From positions 680,968 through 744,967 of the forward strand of contig NZ_LMSC01000007.1 of the NCBI RefSeq assembly GCF_001428025.1: a DNA stretch of 64,000 nucleotides, in the 5' to 3' direction. Position 1 is the first letter of the stretch, and each line of letters opens with the position of its first letter. The translations under genes were made by a program, and so were the position numbers. The stretch comes from Phycicoccus sp. Soil748 (GTDB lineage: Bacteria > Actinomycetota > Actinomycetes > Actinomycetales > Dermatophilaceae). The notes below the pieces were generated by a model. It worked only from the letters and a program-made list of their open reading frames with translations, was not told the DNA's origin and did no database searches. Positions 13,647 through 24,709 of this stretch are shown here, in pieces.

Positions 13647-14996
13647 TCACGTCGTGGTCGTGGGGTCTGGCGTGGTCGTCGTGGGATCCGACGTCGTGGT
13701 GGTCGGGTCAGGTGTGGTGGTGGTCGGGTCCGACGTCGTGGTGGTCGGGTCCGGTGTCGTCGTCGTGGGATCCGGCGTGGTCGTCGTCGGGTCCGGCGTC
13801 GTCGTCGTGGGATCCGGTGTGGTGGTGGTCGGATCGGGCGTCGTGGTCGTGGGATCGGGCGTCGTGGTCGTGGGGTCCGGAGTAGTGGTGGTCGGGTCCG
13901 GCGTGGTCGTCGTGGGGTCCGGAGTGGTCGTGGTCGGGTCAGGTGTGGTCGTCGTGGGATCGGGCGTCGTGGTGGTCGGGTCCGGTGTCGTGGTGGTCGG
14001 CTGGGGGGACGTCGAGGGGCTGGTCGTCGGCCCGGGCGGCCTGCTGGTGCTCGGGCGCGGAGCAGGCGTCCTCGTCCCCGGCAGGATCGCCGGCGGCGGT
14101 GGTGGCGGGGCCACCGGGAGGGTCGCGGCCTTGGCGACGGCCCGCGTGACGACCTCCGGGGTCACCGTCGCCGGCTCGGACTTCGTCGGGGCCGTAGGGC
14201 CGTGGCTGAGGACGGGGGCCGAGACCGGGCCGATGGCGACCAGGCCGTGCTTGTCGAAGTAGTCGATCCAGTCGAGCACCGCCAGCAGGTAGGGCCCGGA
14301 GTGGTTGTAGGACACGATCGCGGCGGCGAGCTCGGTCGGCTGTGCCAGGTCGCGCCCACCGGCACAGAGGTAGAGCGAGGCCGACACGACCGAGTCGTAG
14401 ACGTTCTGCGGGTCGGCCTTGCCGTCGCCGTCGCCGTCGGTCCCGAAGTCGGCCCAGGCGCTGGGGACGAACTGCATCGGCCCCACGGCGCGGTCCCACT
14501 GCGTGTTGCCGTCGAGGAGCCCACCGTCGGTGTCAGGCACCCGGGCGAGCCGCCCACCCGACAGCAGCGGCCCGTACACGCCCGGGACGACGCGGTGGCC
14601 GCTCAGGGACTGCCCACCCGCGGACCCGGACTCGACCTGGGCGATGGCCGCCAGGACCTCGGCACGCAGCCGGCACGCCGGCGGTGCGCCACGGACGGCA
14701 CCGAGGTACGCGTCGACGAGGGCGACCTGGACCGGCCCCGGCCCCGGTGCGCCGAGGGTGGCGCCGAGCGCCGGCGGGTGGGCGATCTGGCCGGCCACGG
14801 ACACGTTGACGCTGCGTCCCTCGGTGCTCAGCGCGCCCGAGCTGAGGTCGTCGAACGCCGCCCGGCCGTCGTCGACCGACGTCCCCAGCGGGTGCACGGG
14901 CTGCGGGGAGCCCTGCGGCTCGTCCGGACCGGACGCGCCGCAGGCCGCCACCACAGCCGTGGCCGCGGCGATGACGAGGAAGGTGGGAAGTCGCAT
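13647..14996 (-). CDS. Lipoprotein lytic murein transglycosylase (SLT/MltB-like) with Thr-Pro-Asp repeat tail
   Basis: The 449-residue protein starts with a lipoprotein signal: a hydrophobic stretch ending in lipobox VAAC with Cys19. The central domain is lytic transglycosylase-like. It has a probable catalytic Glu in IAQVESGSAGG, then WDRAVGPMQFVPSAWADFG, a DGDGDGKADPQN loop and SYNHSGPYL, all typical of actinobacterial MltB-type enzymes that cleave the MurNAc-GlcNAc bond. The last 117 residues are 16 copies of PTTTT[PS]D plus a final PTTTT, reaching the stop codon. Such Thr/Pro tails often span the wall and can be O-glycosylated. The gene converges on the glycan operon, and its upstream region carries copy B of the motif found before that operon. 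Confidence 0.8.
   Translation of the reverse strand: MRLPTFLVIAAATAVVAACGASGPDEPQGSPQPVHPLGTSVDDGRAAFDDLSSGALSTEGRSVNVSVAGQIAHPPALGATLGAPGPGPVQVALVDAYLGAVRGAPPACRLRAEVLAAIAQVESGSAGGQSLSGHRVVPGVYGPLLSGGRLARVPDTDGGLLDGNTQWDRAVGPMQFVPSAWADFGTDGDGDGKADPQNVYDSVVSASLYLCAGGRDLAQPTELAAAIVSYNHSGPYLLAVLDWIDYFDKHGLVAIGPVSAPVLSHGPTAPTKSEPATVTPEVVTRAVAKAATLPVAPPPPPPAILPGTRTPAPRPSTSRPPGPTTSPSTSPQPTTTTPDPTTTTPDPTTTTPDPTTTTPDPTTTTPDPTTTTPDPTTTTPDPTTTTPDPTTTTPDPTTTTPDPTTTTPDPTTTTPDPTTTTSDPTTTTPDPTTTTSDPTTTTPDPTTTT
13650..14000 (-). repeat. 21-bp tandem repeat array encoding PTTTT[PS]D
   Basis: The array is 351 bp: 16 full 21-bp units plus 15 bp, in frame in the lytic transglycosylase gene. Units differ mainly at third codon positions, so the protein repeat is kept while the DNA has diverged. 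This argues for selection on the peptide. Copy number may vary between strains. Confidence 0.9.
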
Positions 14997-17486: not shown

Positions 17487-18745
17487 GCCACACCCACCCG
17501 GGCGGTGCCACCGGACAGGACGCCCCACACGGAGGCGAGCTCGTCACCCGACCCGACGACGGCCACGCTCCACCCGGCTCCGCGCAGGACCGGTACGCAG
17601 GCCATCTCCGACGGCGCGCCGGTGCGCCGTCGGCGGGCGGCGCCGAACCCGTCCGGGTCGAGCACGACCGCGAGCGCGGTGCCCCCGGGCTGGCGCAGTG
17701 ACGCGACCCGGCGGGCCAGCTCCTCGTCGAGCTCGGTGACGACGGCCAGGACCAGGCCGCCCGAGGCCGTGACGGGGTGGGCGGCCTGCAGGACGTCGGC
17801 GAACTGGTCGTCGGAGCCGGGCTCGGCCATGGCGAGCACGTCGAGCAGCGGGTCGACCTCGATCGAGGCGGAGGCGCGGCTGTCCTCCGCGGTCTCGTCG
17901 GTGACCAGGTGCACGGCATACCCCTGGTCGAGCAGGTGCACCCCCACCGAGGCGCACGCGGTCACGGCCCACTCGAACGAGCCGGAGCTCCCCGAGCCGT
18001 GGTGGCCGCGCGCCCGGGAGTCCAGGACGATCGCTGCACGGCGGCGGGCGGGGCGGTCCTCCTGGCGGACCATGAGCTCACCGGTCTTCGCCGTGGCGGG
18101 CCAGTGGATCCGGCGCAGGTCGTCGCCGTCGCGGTAGGACCGGATGGAGACGTCGTCCTCGCCGTGCAGGGCGACCATGTGCGGGATGACCCCCTCGGCG
18201 CCGACGCCGCTGCCCGGCGGCTGCCCGCCGCCCAGCGGCAGGATGCGGGGGAGCACGAGGATGTCGCTGGACCCTGAGATGGCCGCGACCCGGGTGCTCA
18301 GCCCGAACGGGTCACGCAGGCGCACCCCGAGGGGGCCGAGGCGGTGGCGGCCACGCACGTGGGAGCGCACCGTGTAGTGGACCTCCTGCCGCTCGCCGCG
18401 CCGCAGCCGGGGCACGACGAACCGGGGACGGTCACCGAGTGCGTAGTCGAGCTGCTCCTCGGCCATGAGCAGCGGGCTCGCCGCGCCGCCGGCGTTCTCG
18501 ATGGCCAGCGTGACCACCGACTGCTCGTCGACCTGGATGCGGCCGGGCACGGCAGTGCGCTCGAGGGCGAACCGCAGGTCGTGCCGTCGCATGAGCAGGC
18601 CGCTGAGCAGGGGGAGGGCCACCAGGAGGACGCCGATGCGGGTGAGGTCGGTGAACCCCAGCCCGACACCGCACAGCACCAGGGTGGTCCCGGCGGCGAC
18701 GAACGCCCGGCCGCGGGTGGTGAGGAGGTCGCGGAGCCTGCGCAC
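17483..18745 (-). CDS. DUF58 domain protein
   Basis: This 420-residue protein has a GTG start 6 bp after the moxR stop. Two membrane helices lie near the N-terminus (about residues 12-50), followed by a beta-rich region. The DUF58 signature IRSYRDGDDLRRIHWPATAKTGELMVRQ comes next (quoted in part: IRSYRDGDDLRRIHW). After it comes a von Willebrand A-like fold with AAIVLDSRA. DUF58 proteins are paired with MoxR ATPases and are thought to be activated or assembled by them. The stop overlaps the transglutaminase start, indicating translational coupling. Confidence 0.85.
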   Translation of the reverse strand: MRRLRDLLTTRGRAFVAAGTTLVLCGVGLGFTDLTRIGVLLVALPLLSGLLMRRHDLRFALERTAVPGRIQVDEQSVVTLAIENAGGAASPLLMAEEQLDYALGDRPRFVVPRLRRGERQEVHYTVRSHVRGRHRLGPLGVRLRDPFGLSTRVAAISGSSDILVLPRILPLGGGQPPGSGVGAEGVIPHMVALHGEDDVSIRSYRDGDDLRRIHWPATAKTGELMVRQEDRPARRRAAIVLDSRARGHHGSGSSGSFEWAVTACASVGVHLLDQGYAVHLVTDETAEDSRASASIEVDPLLDVLAMAEPGSDDQFADVLQAAHPVTASGGLVLAVVTELDEELARRVASLRQPGGTALAVVLDPDGFGAARRRRTGAPSEMACVPVLRGAGWSVAVVGSGDELASVWGVLSGGTARVGVA

Positions 18746-18751
18746 GGCGCC

Positions 18752-19852
<1,101 letters not shown>

Positions 19853-20062
19853 CGTCGGGGGTGCCTCGCTGCGCCCCCGCGGATGTTCCTGATCTTTCCC
19901 CACAACGCCCCACCGGGACAGCAGGTATGCCGTCTCGTGACCTGGGATCGCTGCTCCGGGCAACGGCCGAGCCCCTCCAGAGGTGCCCGCGAGCGTGGTG
20001 GGAGCGCCCGCGCGGTGGGCGCGACCGGGTCGTCGGCCGTCGAGGCGCCGACCGAGCTCAGC

Positions 20063-20085
20063 GATCCACCACTTTGCACCACCAC
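20063..20085 (-). promoter_or_regulatory. MraZ-box-like element facing the moxR operon
   Basis: On the minus strand the sequence GTGGTGGTGCAAAGTGGTGG followed by ATC matches the element before mraZ at 18 of 20 positions (GTGGTGGAGTAAAGTGGTGG). It contains the AAAGTGG core reported for MraZ boxes in mollicutes. It lies about 210 bp upstream of the moxR start. Confidence 0.5.
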
Positions 20086-20130
20086 TGTGACCTGCAAAAA
20101 CAGCCAAACAGATGACCTCAAACGCCGGAA

Positions 20131-20174
20131 TGGGGTGCCTGTGGGGGTCGTGGTGGAGTAAAGTGGTGGAATCC
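20131..20174 (+). promoter_or_regulatory. mraZ operator: direct TGGNG repeats / MraZ boxes
   Basis: TGGNG repeats start at 20131, 20142, 20154 and 20164, with spacings of 10-12 bp, close to one helical turn. The last two form GTGGTGGAGTAAAGTGGTGG. TAAAGT within it (20159-20164) could be a -10 box, so bound MraZ would block the promoter. MraZ is known to autoregulate the dcw operon by binding TGGGN-type repeats upstream of its own gene. Confidence 0.7.
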
Positions 20175-20220
20175 AGAGGGCCGTGGGGCCCGAGCACCGG
20201 CGGCAGGGGAGGTGGGCACC

Positions 20221-20652
20221 GTGTTCCTCGGGACGCACAGCCCCCGACTCGACGACAAGGGCCGCCTGTTCCTCCCCGCCAAGTTCCGCGAGCGCATGGC
20301 CGGCGGCCTGGTGGTCACCCGTGGCCAGGAGCGCTGCCTCTACGTCTTCCCGATGCAGGAGTTCGTCCGCGTGACCGAGCAGATGCAGTCGGCGCCCACG
20401 ACGAGCAAGGCCGTCCGCGACTTCACCCGTGTCTTCCTCTCCGGCGCCTCCGACGAGGTCCCCGACAAGCAGGGCCGCGTGACCATCCCGGCCAACCTGC
20501 GCGCCTACGCCGGGCTGACCCGCGACTGCACCGTCATCGGCGCCGGCTCGCGCGTCGAGGTCTGGGACACCGACGCCTGGAACGCCTACCTCGAGAGCAC
20601 CGAGCAGGGCTTCGCCGACCAGTCCGAGGAGGTCATCCCCGGACTGCTCTGA
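20221..20652 (+). CDS. mraZ: Transcriptional regulator MraZ
   Basis: The 143-residue protein has two AbrB/SpoVT-like repeats. Each has a family DxxGR core: [14 protein letters not shown] near the N-terminus and [19 protein letters not shown] near residue 80. GTG 20221 is chosen because AGGGGAGG lies 9 bp upstream and the protein then begins VFLGTH, as in the family; GTG 20212 would leave no space for a ribosome-binding site. MraZ is a ring-forming DNA-binding protein that represses the dcw operon. It is the first gene of the cluster and is followed by an unusually long 232-bp gap before rsmH. Confidence 0.95.
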
Positions 20653-20663
20653 ACCACCGGACC

Positions 20664-20728
20664 GGAGACGCCCCTGTGGCCAGGTCTCCAGCCGCTTCGC
20701 TTCCCGGGACGACTTCCCCCGTCCCGGG
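20664..20728 (+). terminator. Possible attenuator hairpins between mraZ and rsmH
   Basis: Two inverted repeats follow mraZ: GGAGAC/GTCTCC (20664-20669/20684-20689) and the perfect 8-bp CCCGGGAC/GTCCCGGG with a 10-nt loop (20703-20710/20721-20728). About 90 nt of C-rich, G-poor sequence with repeated GCACCAC follow up to the rsmH ribosome-binding site. Partial termination or Rho loading that tunes dcw expression is possible. Confidence 0.35.
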
Positions 20729-20884
20729 CCGCACACCAGGAGCGGATGGGGACCTGACCGCAGGGTCACCCGGACCGCACGACCCCGTAGCACCCCGCAG
20801 CGCAGCACCACCGCACAGCAGCACTCGAAGCACCCGCACCACTACTTCGCACCACCCAGCACCGAGCACCACAGGAGTACGTCG

Positions 20885-21874
20885 ATGAACTCACGAGGAA
20901 TGGCCGCCGACCGGCACGTTCCCGTGCTCCGCGACCGCATCGTCGAGCTGCTGGCGCCCGCCCTCACCGAGCCCGGCGCGGTCTACCTCGACGGCACGCT
21001 CGGCATGGGCGGCCACGCCGAGGCCGTCCTCGAGGCCTGCCCGCAGGCGCGCGTCGTCGGCATCGACCGCGACCAGGAGGCCCTCGCGCTCGCGGCCGAG
21101 CGGCTCGCCCCGTACGCGGCCCGCACCACCTTCGTCCACGCCGTCTACGACGAGGTGCCCCGGGCGCTCGCCGAGGCCGGTGTCGACCACGTCGACGCCA
21201 GCCTCTACGACCTCGGCGTCTCCTCCCTGCAGCTCGACGAGGCCGACCGCGGCTTCTCCTACAGCCAGGACGCACCGCTGGACATGCGCATGGACCAGAC
21301 CACCGGGGTCACGGCCGCCGACGTGCTCAACACCTACGGTGCGGCCGAGCTCGAGACGATCCTGCGCGAGTACGGCGAGGAGCGGTTCGCCCGCAAGATC
21401 GCCGCTGCCGTCGTGCGCGAGCGGGAGAGCGAGCCGTTCACCACCTCGGCCCGGCTCGTGGAGCTGCTCAAGAAGGTCGTCCCGGCCGCCTCGCAGAAGA
21501 GCGGCGGCCACCCCGGCAAGCGGACGTTCCAGGCGCTGCGCATCGAGGTCAACTCCGAGCTGTCCGTCTGGGCGCAGGCGCTGCCGCGCGTCATCGACGC
21601 GCTCGGCGTCGGTGGCCGCGTCGCCGTCCTGTCCTACCACTCGCTCGAGGACCGCATCACCAAGCGCGTCTTCGCCCAGGGCGCCAAGGGCAGCAGCCCC
21701 GAGGGCCTGCCCGTGGAGCTGCCCGAGCACGCGCCGTACCTGCGCCTGCTCACCCGCGGGGCCGAGGAGGCCTCCGCGCAGGAGCAGTCCGCCAACCCCC
21801 GATCTGCCTCGGTGCGCCTGCGCGCCGCCGAGCGCACCCGACTTTCCACAGCAACGAAGGGACAGCACCGATGA
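20885..21874 (+). CDS. rsmH: 16S rRNA (cytosine-1402-N4)-methyltransferase RsmH
   Basis: The 329-residue methyltransferase has the SAM-binding motif [15 protein letters not shown] (about 33-47) and [15 protein letters not shown]. The conserved [12 protein letters not shown] and [12 protein letters not shown] motifs follow. ATG 20885 follows an AGGAG site by 8 bp. The stop overlaps the ftsL start as ATGA. RsmH (MraW) methylates C1402 in the ribosomal decoding centre. The C-terminal tail ends in a short basic segment. Confidence 0.95.
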
Positions 21875-22557
21875 GCCAGCAGACTGCGACGGCGAGGGTC
21901 GCATCTCGGGCCCCCCTCCGGCGGCAGGCACCGCCCCAGCCCCTGCGCGTCGTGCCGGCCGCTCTCGGCCAGCCGGGCAACGGCCTGTTCGCCGCCCTGT
22001 GCATGACCATGCTCGTGGCGGGGCTCGTCGGCCTGCTCATGCTGAACACCGCGATGGCGGAGGGCTCGTTCACGCTCCACCGGCTCCAGGCCACCTCGGG
22101 CGAGCTCACCGACACCCAGCAGGCCCTGACCCAGGCCATCGACGCCCAGCGCAGCCCGGCCAACCTCGCTGCCCGCGCCGCCAAGATGGGGATGGTGCCG
22201 GCCGACTCGGCGGCGTTCCTGCGGCTGTCCGACGGCAAGGTCCTCGGCGTGGCGAGCCCGGCGAAGAAGCAGCCCGGCTTTACCGTGGTGACCGCTCCGC
22301 AGGCCTCGTCCTCGAAGGCTGCGAAGGCCAAGGACACCGCGCCGAAGGCGTCGGTCACCACCAAGGGGGACGTGACGACCACCACCGAGAAGGTCACCAA
22401 GCCCGACGGCTCGGTCGTCACCACGGTGACCAGCGTCGACGCCCGCACCAAGGCCACCACCAGCACGACCACGACCACCCCGGCAACGACGTCGGGGGCC
22501 GGGGCGGCCCAGCCGTCGGCCGGGACGCCGGCGGACGCCGCCACGCCCAAGCCCTGA
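21871..22557 (+). CDS. ftsL: FtsL-like divisome membrane protein
   Basis: This 228-residue bitopic protein has a basic cytoplasmic N-terminus and one helix at about residues 38-60 ([21 protein letters not shown]). An extracytoplasmic coiled coil ([25 protein letters not shown]; quoted in part: [16 protein letters not shown]) and the MGMVPAD segment typical of actinobacterial FtsL follow. A long Lys/Thr/Ala-rich low-complexity tail extends from about residue 130. It would pair with the DivIC-type partner and FtsQ to activate FtsW/FtsI. Position between rsmH and ftsI supports the call. Confidence 0.85.
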
Positions 22558-22603
22558 CGCACGACAGCACGCAGCACCACCCGACCCAGACACGAGGTAC
22601 CCA

Positions 22604-24709
22604 GTGACGCAGACCCGAGGCACCGGCCCGGGAGCCCCACGCCCTCGTGCCGGCACGGGGGCGCCCACGGGTACGGCGCCGCGTCGCCGCCCGGCGCCGG
22701 GTGCAGCCAGGGGCGCGACGCAGCGTGCGGCCCAGGGCAAGGAGCGGGCCGCGGCGGCCAGGGCCGGTCGCCCCTCGGGTCGACCCGCCCCCGCAGGCGC
22801 CCGTCCCACGGGTGCCGGGGCACCGCGACGCACCGGACCCAGGCCACCGGCGGCACCGCCGCGTCGCCCGGTCGGGCGCAAGGTCAGCCTCGACGGCTCC
22901 AACCCGCGTCGCCGCATGCGGACGATGACCGTGGCCGTGCTCTTCGTGTTCAGCATCTTCGGCGCGCAGCTGCTGCGGCTGCAGGGCTTCGACGCCTCGG
23001 CGGTCTCCAAGGACGCCCAGACCAACCGCACCACCACGGTGCCGCTGCTGGCCATGCGCGGCTCCATCCTCGACCGCAACGGCACGATCCTCGCCTCCAG
23101 CATCGAGCGGCGCACGGTGACCGTCGACCAGACGGCCGTGCCGGAGTACGTCAAGAGCGTCGACGGGGTCCGCACCAAGGTGGGCGTCGCCGGGGCCGCC
23201 GAGGACCTCTCGCCGCTGCTGAACATCCCCGTCGACCAGCTCACGCAGGACCTCACCGGGACGGCCAAGTACCGCGTCCTCGCGCGGAACATCACCCCGC
23301 TCAACTGGCGCAAGATCTCCGAGCTCGGCGTCAACGGCGTCTACTCCGAGGCCACGTCCGACCGCAACTACCCGACCTCCACGGCCGCCGCCTCGCTCGT
23401 CGGGTTCCTGCGCTCGGACGGCACGGCCGGCGGTGGCCTCGAGGTCCTCGAGGACGGCGTCCTCAAGGGCAGGGCCGGAAAGACGATCTTCGAGCACTCC
23501 CAGGACGGCCGGGCCATCCCCAACGCGCGTCAGGAGACGATCCCGCCGGTCGAGGGCAAGGACGTCAAGCTGACCCTCGACTCCGACCTGCAGTGGTTCG
23601 CCCAGAACGCCGTGGCGCAGAAGGTCAACGAGACCAAGGCGTTGTCGGGCACGGTGGTCGTCACGAACGTCAAGACCGGTGAGCTGCTCGCCGTCGCGTC
23701 GTACCCGACGTTCGACCCCAACCAGCCGGGGCAGGCCAGCGAGAACTGGACCAACAAGGCGTTCAACGACGTCTACGAGCCGGGCTCGACGGGCAAGGTC
23801 ATCACGGCGTCGGCGGCCATCGAGGAGGGCGCCGTCACGCCGTCCACCGTGGTCGAGGTGCCCAACCGCATCCACCGCTCGGGCACCGAGTTCAAGGACA
23901 GCCACGACCACGCCACCGAGTACCTCACCTTCGCGGGCGTCCTCGCGCAGTCCAGCAACATCGGCACGATCCTGGCCGGCGAGAAGGTCAAGGCGTCGAC
24001 GATGTACAGCTACTTCAAGAAGTTCGGCCTCGGCGCCACGTCGGGGATGGGCTTCCCGGGTGAGGGCCCGGGCCTGCTGACCAACGTCAAGGACTGGAAC
24101 GGCTCGCAGCGCTACACCGTGCTCTTCGGGCAGGGCCTGTCGGTCAACGCCCTGCAGGCGGCCGGGGTCTTCCAGACGATCGCCAACGACGGCGTGCGGA
24201 TCCCGCCGCGCATCGTGGCCGCCACCAGCGACGGCCACGGCGGGTTCACCCCGGCGCCCAAGGCCCAGGGCATCCGGGTGGTCTCGGCCACGACCGCCAA
24301 GAAGGTCCGCGACATGCTCGAGGGAGTCGTCGGCAAGGAGGGCACCGCGCCCGAGGCCAAGATCCCGGGCTACCGCGTGGCCGGCAAGACCGGCACCGCC
24401 GACCGCTACGACGCCAAGGTGGGCGGCTACTCCGGCAAGACCGCGAGCTTCATCGGGTTCGCCCCCGCCGACGACCCCGAGATCGTCGTCGCGGTGACGC
24501 TCCAGCGCCCCATCAAGGGCTACTTCGGTGGCGCCGTCGCCGGGCCTGTCTTCAAGGACGTCATGACCTACGCCCTGCAGGAGCTGCAGGTCCCGCCGAC
24601 CGGCACGAAGTCCCCGGTGGTCCAGGTGAAGGCAGCTGAGACCCCGGCCAAGGACGACCCGTCGGTGCTGCGCGACCACCAGTCGGGCACGTCCGGCCTG
24701 CGGCGCTGA
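22604..24709 (+). CDS. ftsI: Septal transpeptidase FtsI (PBP3, class B penicillin-binding protein)
   Basis: The protein has 701 residues with a GTG start. Its roughly 100-residue cytoplasmic N-terminus is rich in Arg, Pro and Ala. One membrane helix (about 107-122) precedes the dimerisation/pedestal domain (about 145-340) and the transpeptidase with Ser395-Thr-Gly-Lys398, SSN at 450-452 and KTG at 595-597. It cross-links septal peptidoglycan together with FtsW. A 46-bp gap follows ftsL, and the stop lies 17 bp before murE. Confidence 0.95.
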   Translation: MTQTRGTGPGAPRPRAGTGAPTGTAPRRRPAPGAARGATQRAAQGKERAAAARAGRPSGRPAPAGARPTGAGAPRRTGPRPPAAPPRRPVGRKVSLDGSNPRRRMRTMTVAVLFVFSIFGAQLLRLQGFDASAVSKDAQTNRTTTVPLLAMRGSILDRNGTILASSIERRTVTVDQTAVPEYVKSVDGVRTKVGVAGAAEDLSPLLNIPVDQLTQDLTGTAKYRVLARNITPLNWRKISELGVNGVYSEATSDRNYPTSTAAASLVGFLRSDGTAGGGLEVLEDGVLKGRAGKTIFEHSQDGRAIPNARQETIPPVEGKDVKLTLDSDLQWFAQNAVAQKVNETKALSGTVVVTNVKTGELLAVASYPTFDPNQPGQASENWTNKAFNDVYEPGSTGKVITASAAIEEGAVTPSTVVEVPNRIHRSGTEFKDSHDHATEYLTFAGVLAQSSNIGTILAGEKVKASTMYSYFKKFGLGATSGMGFPGEGPGLLTNVKDWNGSQRYTVLFGQGLSVNALQAAGVFQTIANDGVRIPPRIVAATSDGHGGFTPAPKAQGIRVVSATTAKKVRDMLEGVVGKEGTAPEAKIPGYRVAGKTGTADRYDAKVGGYSGKTASFIGFAPADDPEIVVAVTLQRPIKGYFGGAVAGPVFKDVMTYALQELQVPPTGTKSPVVQVKAAETPAKDDPSVLRDHQSGTSGLRR

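Follow-up and report, generated by a model that had tools for sequence, protein, structure and literature searches.

We found three related boxes upstream of mraZ in Phycicoccus sp. Soil748, one (F) on the mraZ strand and two (R1 and R2) inverted. We favour, with moderate confidence, the reading that F, R1 and R2 together make up a single operator array through which mraZ is autoregulated, in the simplest case by a DNA loop that MraZ bridges. Established directly are the sequences of the boxes, their conservation, the near-strict inversion of the upstream copies, their helical phasing to F and not to moxR, and their persistence where moxR is missing. If true, a phased loop between inverted operators would be a looping mode that the literature searched does not describe for MraZ. 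This regulator is widely conserved and stands at the head of the division and cell-wall cluster, and what is at stake is the action of a ring beyond a single run of repeats.

Three boxes at the mraZ promoter

The window, the whole stretch of 64,000 nucleotides analysed here, holds mraZ on the plus strand at 20221..20652 (GTG start, alternative start at 20212; PF02381, E 4.3e-39), followed by mraW. Divergently from mraZ run a moxR-type AAA ATPase gene (18752..19852, minus strand; PF07726 and PF17863; start codon uncertain), a DUF58 gene and a gene for a TgpA-type transglutaminase. Among the named MraZ proteins found, the nearest belong to Phycicoccus sp. Root101 (98%), a Pedococcus (97%) and Knoellia koreensis (95%). 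The F box, GTGGTGGAGTAAAGTGGTGG, lies at 20150-20169 on the plus strand (core 20153-20166, GTGGAGTAAAGTGG), and the inverted R1 box, GTGGTGGTGCAAAGTGGTGG, at 20066-20085 on the minus strand (core 20069-20082, GTGGTGCAAAGTGG). A preliminary description of the locus had claimed these two as a mirror-image pair, and the pair is real: the boxes lie on opposite strands, are identical at 18 of 20 positions and have 64 bp between them. The outer coordinates it gave (20063-20174) were 3-5 bp too wide, and its inventory overlooked R2, a third core with the sequence GTGGGGCGTTGTGG, inverted, at 19900-19913 on the minus strand. Measured from core to core, the start of R1 precedes that of F by 84 bp and the start of R2 by 253 bp.

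The repeat unit of the boxes is GTGG at a 10-bp period, with two in-register units in each of the 20-mers F and R1. The GTGG-N6-GTGG format is common by itself, and the window holds six forward and four inverted copies of it. When the 3.97-Mb genome was searched with the pattern GTGGTGGNNNAAAGTGGTGG, F and R1 were the two exact matches; none was found at one or two mismatches and 13 at three. A reversed control with up to three mismatches also gave 15 in total, so only the two exact matches stand out. The core GTGGNGNRAAGTGG has two genome-wide matches, both at this locus (control, one), and in 2000 dinucleotide-shuffled versions of the 314 bp that precede F, two inverted cores never occurred together (mean 0.017). 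A plain GTGG-N10-12-GTGG search of the same genome had the wrong spacing and was uninformative, returning 1739 matches, fewer than the 2837 of its reversed control.

F overlaps a putative mraZ -10 element, TAAAGT, at 20159-20164. The F core GTGGnnTAnnGTGG, which contains TA, was found at 191 of 194 mraZ loci of the order, and at 57 of these 191 loci TTGA lies exactly 16 nt ahead of the core and at no other offset within 14-19. The TAnnnT of the F core could serve as a -10 element with TTGA 16 nt ahead, in which case F would span the spacer and the -10 of the mraZ promoter. The window itself has no recognisable TTGA or -35 element, and a scan of 19700-20260 for a consensus sigma-70 promoter gave no match; the assignment of the mraZ promoter therefore rests on the relatives. 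A third GTGG lies 10 bp upstream of the F box at 141 of the 191 loci, which is not so in this window.

These features are those of known MraZ boxes. In the published text available to us, the mraZ promoters of E. coli, Burkholderia cenocepacia and the Mollicutes carry the same kind of direct repeat, built on a GTG core and recurring every 10 bp. F and R1 both consist of such repeats, and F lies on the promoter of a MraZ gene, as judged from the placement of the -10 and -35 elements in relatives and from the PF02381 protein encoded downstream; R1 and R2 lie upstream of that promoter. Homology, in the form of 10-bp GTGG repeats on an mraZ promoter, thus supports the preliminary description where it took the boxes to be MraZ sites. 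As it further stated, MraZ autoregulation through repeats is known. The B. cenocepacia mraZ promoter has four 7-nt repeats with 3-nt spacers that overlap the start site (PMC7761207), and the Mollicutes have AAAGTG[T/G] repeats, which in M. genitalium occur nowhere else in the chromosome (PMC8475190).

Conservation, inversion and helical phase in relatives

Searches for mraZ covered 149 order and 99 family genomes, of which 144 and 98 gave a match, and we examined the upstream DNA of 194 loci, 154 at first and 40 more later. All 98 mraZ loci of the family were taken. For the rest of the order, where 134 genomes have mraZ, the first draw comprised 56 loci (20 by search score and 36 hand-picked across families), and the later 40 came partly from families already known to have boxes or to be without moxR. 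F was anchored in 153 of the first 154 loci and in all but three overall; the three without F (L160, L240 and L241) are omitted from distance counts. Distances in the order sample were entered once per genus and offset, which removes relatedness between genomes only partly.

Both members of the mirror-image pair are conserved in related genomes: in addition to the F core, the order sample contains 128 inverted cores in the R1 range. Between -400 and -60 of F, the 194 loci hold 305 inverted cores and only 3 forward ones. In a comparison with dinucleotide shuffles, 189 regions held 298 inverted cores, with at least one in 166 of them, against a shuffle mean of 4.4 and a maximum of 12. No inverted core was found between -1400 and -400 at 141-151 loci. 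The pattern CACC6CACC, used as a control, is also enriched upstream of mraZ, at 51 copies to 242 of the inverted core, a rise caused by its overlap with C-flanked CCAC boxes. Among 57 named loci outside the order, including Actinomadura, Microbispora and Actinoallomurus, 53 carry an inverted box, 46 of them in the R1 range and nearly all of these at 85-86 bp. The overall count of 426 inverted to 7 forward cores includes the overlap between order and named loci and slightly unequal intervals.

The distances between boxes are constrained. R1-to-F offsets form separate clusters one helical turn apart: 98 of the 128 R1-range boxes lie at 83-87 bp, the remainder at 95-98 bp (13), 105-109 bp (10), 116-118 bp (3), 75 bp (3) and 111 bp (1), and none at any other offset between 60 and 130 bp. 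Most inverted cores of the R2 type are 180-290 bp away from F on the upstream side, where their offsets pile up near 200, 211, 222, 233, 243, 253, 264 and 275 bp. For the order sample (n=164) the best period of the R2-to-F distances was 10.95 bp with R 0.49, a value reached by none of 1000 jitter nulls (mean 0.14, maximum 0.28). We also tested the 57 loci outside the order, as judged by record title, taken from 80 named loci of which 14 belong to the order sample as well. Counted once per genus and offset, their 28 distinct R2 offsets gave 11.0 bp and R 0.695, and none of 2000 nulls came as high (maximum 0.59). An earlier test on named loci (n=58, R 0.64) allowed several entries per genus and overlaps the order sample. 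Single CCAC words are phased too, because those words include the boxes.

Helically phased positions are known from CRP sites and class I activators, and the phased positions of R1 relative to the promoter would also suit MraZ bound at R1 and activating mraZ by touching RNA polymerase. We consider such activation very unlikely. The R2 boxes, about 180-290 bp away, are phased as well, and at that distance they would be too far for direct contact with the polymerase without a loop; moreover, MraZ of E. coli is reported to repress the promoter from which it is itself expressed (cited in PMC7761207).

The phasing is not uniform, and several observations count against an array. Spacing constrained by helical phase, as expected of looping operators, was found; the phase agrees across six families (f1, f15, f16, f12, f9 and f3), and R2 phasing is weak in families f7 and f19. 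Within genera, many of the 55 pairwise differences between R2 positions fall at 0-2, 10-14 and 20-23 bp and others are not whole turns; for the 40 pairs that differ by at least 5 bp the mean cosine is 0.30-0.42. The phasing of R2 is no weaker relative to R1 (R 0.65) than relative to F (R 0.53; both at 10.8 bp, n=94). A joint fit of R1 and R2 gives a best period of 10.5 or 11.3 bp, in imperfect agreement with the 10.95 bp of R2 alone. At 10.9 bp R1 and R2 stand about half a turn apart, so the period is approximate and the two boxes may or may not share one face.

The arrangement reaches beyond the order, and it is far from universal. A strict pattern for R1 plus F (CCAC6CCAC, a gap of 57-87 and GTGGNNTANNGTGG) was found in at least 196 of 396 order genomes (reversed control, at least 2) and in at least 56 of 394 genomes of a class sample, at least 39 of them among the 354 outside the order (control, at least 4). 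It is absent or rare in the mraZ-bearing families f22, f36, f38 and f44. We examined 20 further class loci, mostly from pattern-poor families: F was present in 17, of which 7 had any inverted box and none had one in the R1 range, which again counts against the array. The strict pattern was also absent from 39 genomes of family f37. This family consists of one genus with near-complete genomes of 6-11 Mb (G483, G503 and G520 among them), and none of the nine genomes searched gave an mraZ match.

Relation of the boxes to moxR

The preliminary description had proposed that the inverted box is a MraZ operator for the divergent moxR-DUF58-transglutaminase operon and ties this operon to cell division. 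Some features suit the proposal. The inverted boxes face moxR, which is divergent from mraZ at 146 of the 194 loci; in the window, R2 is found 48-61 bp ahead of the putative moxR ATG, a site where an operator could act. An operator serving moxR would be expected to disappear from mraZ where moxR is absent and to accompany moxR where the two genes are apart, and neither was found.

At 42 loci moxR is replaced by a DUF3040 gene, which lies on the same strand and reads towards mraZ, and at 6 of the 194 loci neither gene was recognised upstream of mraZ. Inverted boxes persist at 30 of the 42 DUF3040-neighbour loci, 23 of which have one in the R1 range; in the first draw alone the figures were 10 of 16 and 6. 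The other 12 of the 42 are without an inverted box, as are 12 of the 146 moxR-neighbour loci (the remaining 134 have one), which counts against the array. Phasing is also seen in the R2-type boxes of DUF3040-neighbour loci (n=27, R 0.57, 10.5 bp).

We then considered 26 genomes in which the gene beside mraZ is DUF3040 (25 genomes) or not recognised (G036); 14 of them had already been examined at mraZ and the rest come from the same families. In none of the 26 does a core occur within 700 bp upstream of the closest match to MoxR, while 21 of the same genomes have inverted boxes at mraZ. These closest homologues are 42-72% identical to the MoxR of the window (19 of 26 at 50% or more), and 25 of 26 adjoin a DUF58 match; some may be paralogues. 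Finally, neither R2 nor F is phased to moxR: 413 and 383 of 1000 nulls, respectively, reached the observed value in the order sample, and 507 and 565 of 1000 in the named loci.

Since the boxes stay with mraZ when the genes part and are phased to F but not to moxR, we judge on these comparisons that they belong to mraZ rather than to moxR. The tempting link from MraZ to the moxR-transglutaminase operon is disfavoured, and we set it aside as probably wrong, giving an operator function at moxR little chance of being correct. A side effect on moxR is possible where the two genes are divergent, as they are in this genome.

R1 was also considered as the core promoter of moxR and rejected, as the conserved TAnnnT is lacking at the equivalent place in R1. 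At five loci (L034, L144, L155, L141 and L168) a TAGGCT or TACCCT hexamer lies from a few to about 25 bases before an ATG at moxR. This placement would suit a short-leader or leaderless moxR transcript that starts well away from R1.

A candidate loop and its relation to known systems

In the operator-array reading that we prefer, MraZ on F would overlap the mraZ promoter and block RNA polymerase. The inverted boxes R1 and R2, some 8 and some 24 helical turns upstream of F, would hold further MraZ on the same face of the DNA and join F in one complex. In its simplest form this complex would be a repressing loop with MraZ rings as the bridge, comparable to those formed through the auxiliary operators of lac and gal. 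We infer MraZ as the ligand of all three boxes, repression at this promoter, and looping. The three cores at this locus would, by their sequence likeness, give one promoter multiple sites for a single regulator, as looping operators do.

Phasing demands the same face and not a loop, which limits the case for looping and would suit a complex of another kind. MraZ could coat or wrap the region on one face, as a polymer or toroid, with no bridged loop, or a second factor could organise the complex at GCAGGTCA. Read on the plus strand this conserved element is TGACCTGC; it adjoins R1 at 20088..20095 and hints at such a factor. TGACC[TA]G lies within 20 bp of R1 at 83 of 127 R1-bearing loci, whether or not moxR is the neighbour, and without moxR it stands beside R1 at 10 of 23 DUF3040-neighbour loci that have R1. 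Coating, wrapping or organisation by a second factor nevertheless appears unlikely to us. Wrapping round one ring predicts a single box orientation, yet the upstream boxes are inverted, and this near-strict inversion makes simple wrapping of the DNA about a single ring less likely than antiparallel segments held by one ring or by two rings that face each other. Furthermore, F, R1 and R2 share a common core, so one protein would suffice.

More generally, actinomycete MraZ may control the division cluster through a helically phased loop, in which its rings hold two or three antiparallel operators; the near-fixed inversion would then reveal the way in which two DNA segments are captured by a C-symmetric ring or a facing pair of rings. 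We see about an even chance that this wider proposal is right.

The lac, gal and ara systems use auxiliary operators for repression by DNA loops, and the distances between their operators matter by helical phase. The array in the window may be analogous to them, with several operators of one regulator at phase-dependent distances. Unlike in those systems, MraZ would be a ring that reads direct repeats, so that orientation would matter, and the loop is putative. We know of no description of such a looping mode for AbrB-type ring regulators.

MraZ boxes, autorepression and MraZ-DNA structures are already known. As far as the available text describes them, the direct repeats of E. coli, B. cenocepacia and the Mollicutes form a single run, located at the promoter, whereas the window adds inverted, phased boxes upstream. 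The fold predicted for the MraZ of the window matches solved MraZ structures from M. pneumoniae and M. genitalium (Z 17.5-20, rmsd 3.5-3.6, 137-138 residues). Among these, two cryo-EM structures of Mycoplasma genitalium MraZ with its promoter (9r4j and 9sz7) belong to the same family, the model of the window protein giving Z 17.5 and 18.5 at rmsd 3.5-3.6 over 137-138 residues; judging by their titles ('4 box promoter') they would contain one promoter run. These structures could be extended to a two-site complex, and the naturally varied, phased and inverted operators of the relatives offer many ready-made test promoters.

In Dietzia, MtrA binds a 100-bp fragment upstream of mraZ (PMC9602371), according to the text available to us; there too an actinobacterial mraZ promoter is under transcriptional control, but by a different regulator, and in that text the words 'loop', 'repeat' and 'mraZ box' are absent from the main body. 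Literature searches, with most subscription papers outside their scope, returned in the accessible text no report of upstream inverted, phased or looping MraZ operators and none of MraZ acting on moxR.

Two further features of the locus were noted. Between mraZ and mraW, at 20666-20775 on the plus strand, lies a full-length match to the cis-regulatory mraW RNA (RF01746; 46.9 bits, E 4.2e-9). Its score is just below the Rfam gathering score of 50, and a search of 18000-23000 at the gathering threshold misses it; its fold is very stable (z -5.1). Just past the transglutaminase gene of the moxR operon, 13647-14996 on the minus strand encodes a protein with an SLT_2 transglycosylase domain and a long C-terminal run of TTTTPDP repeats.
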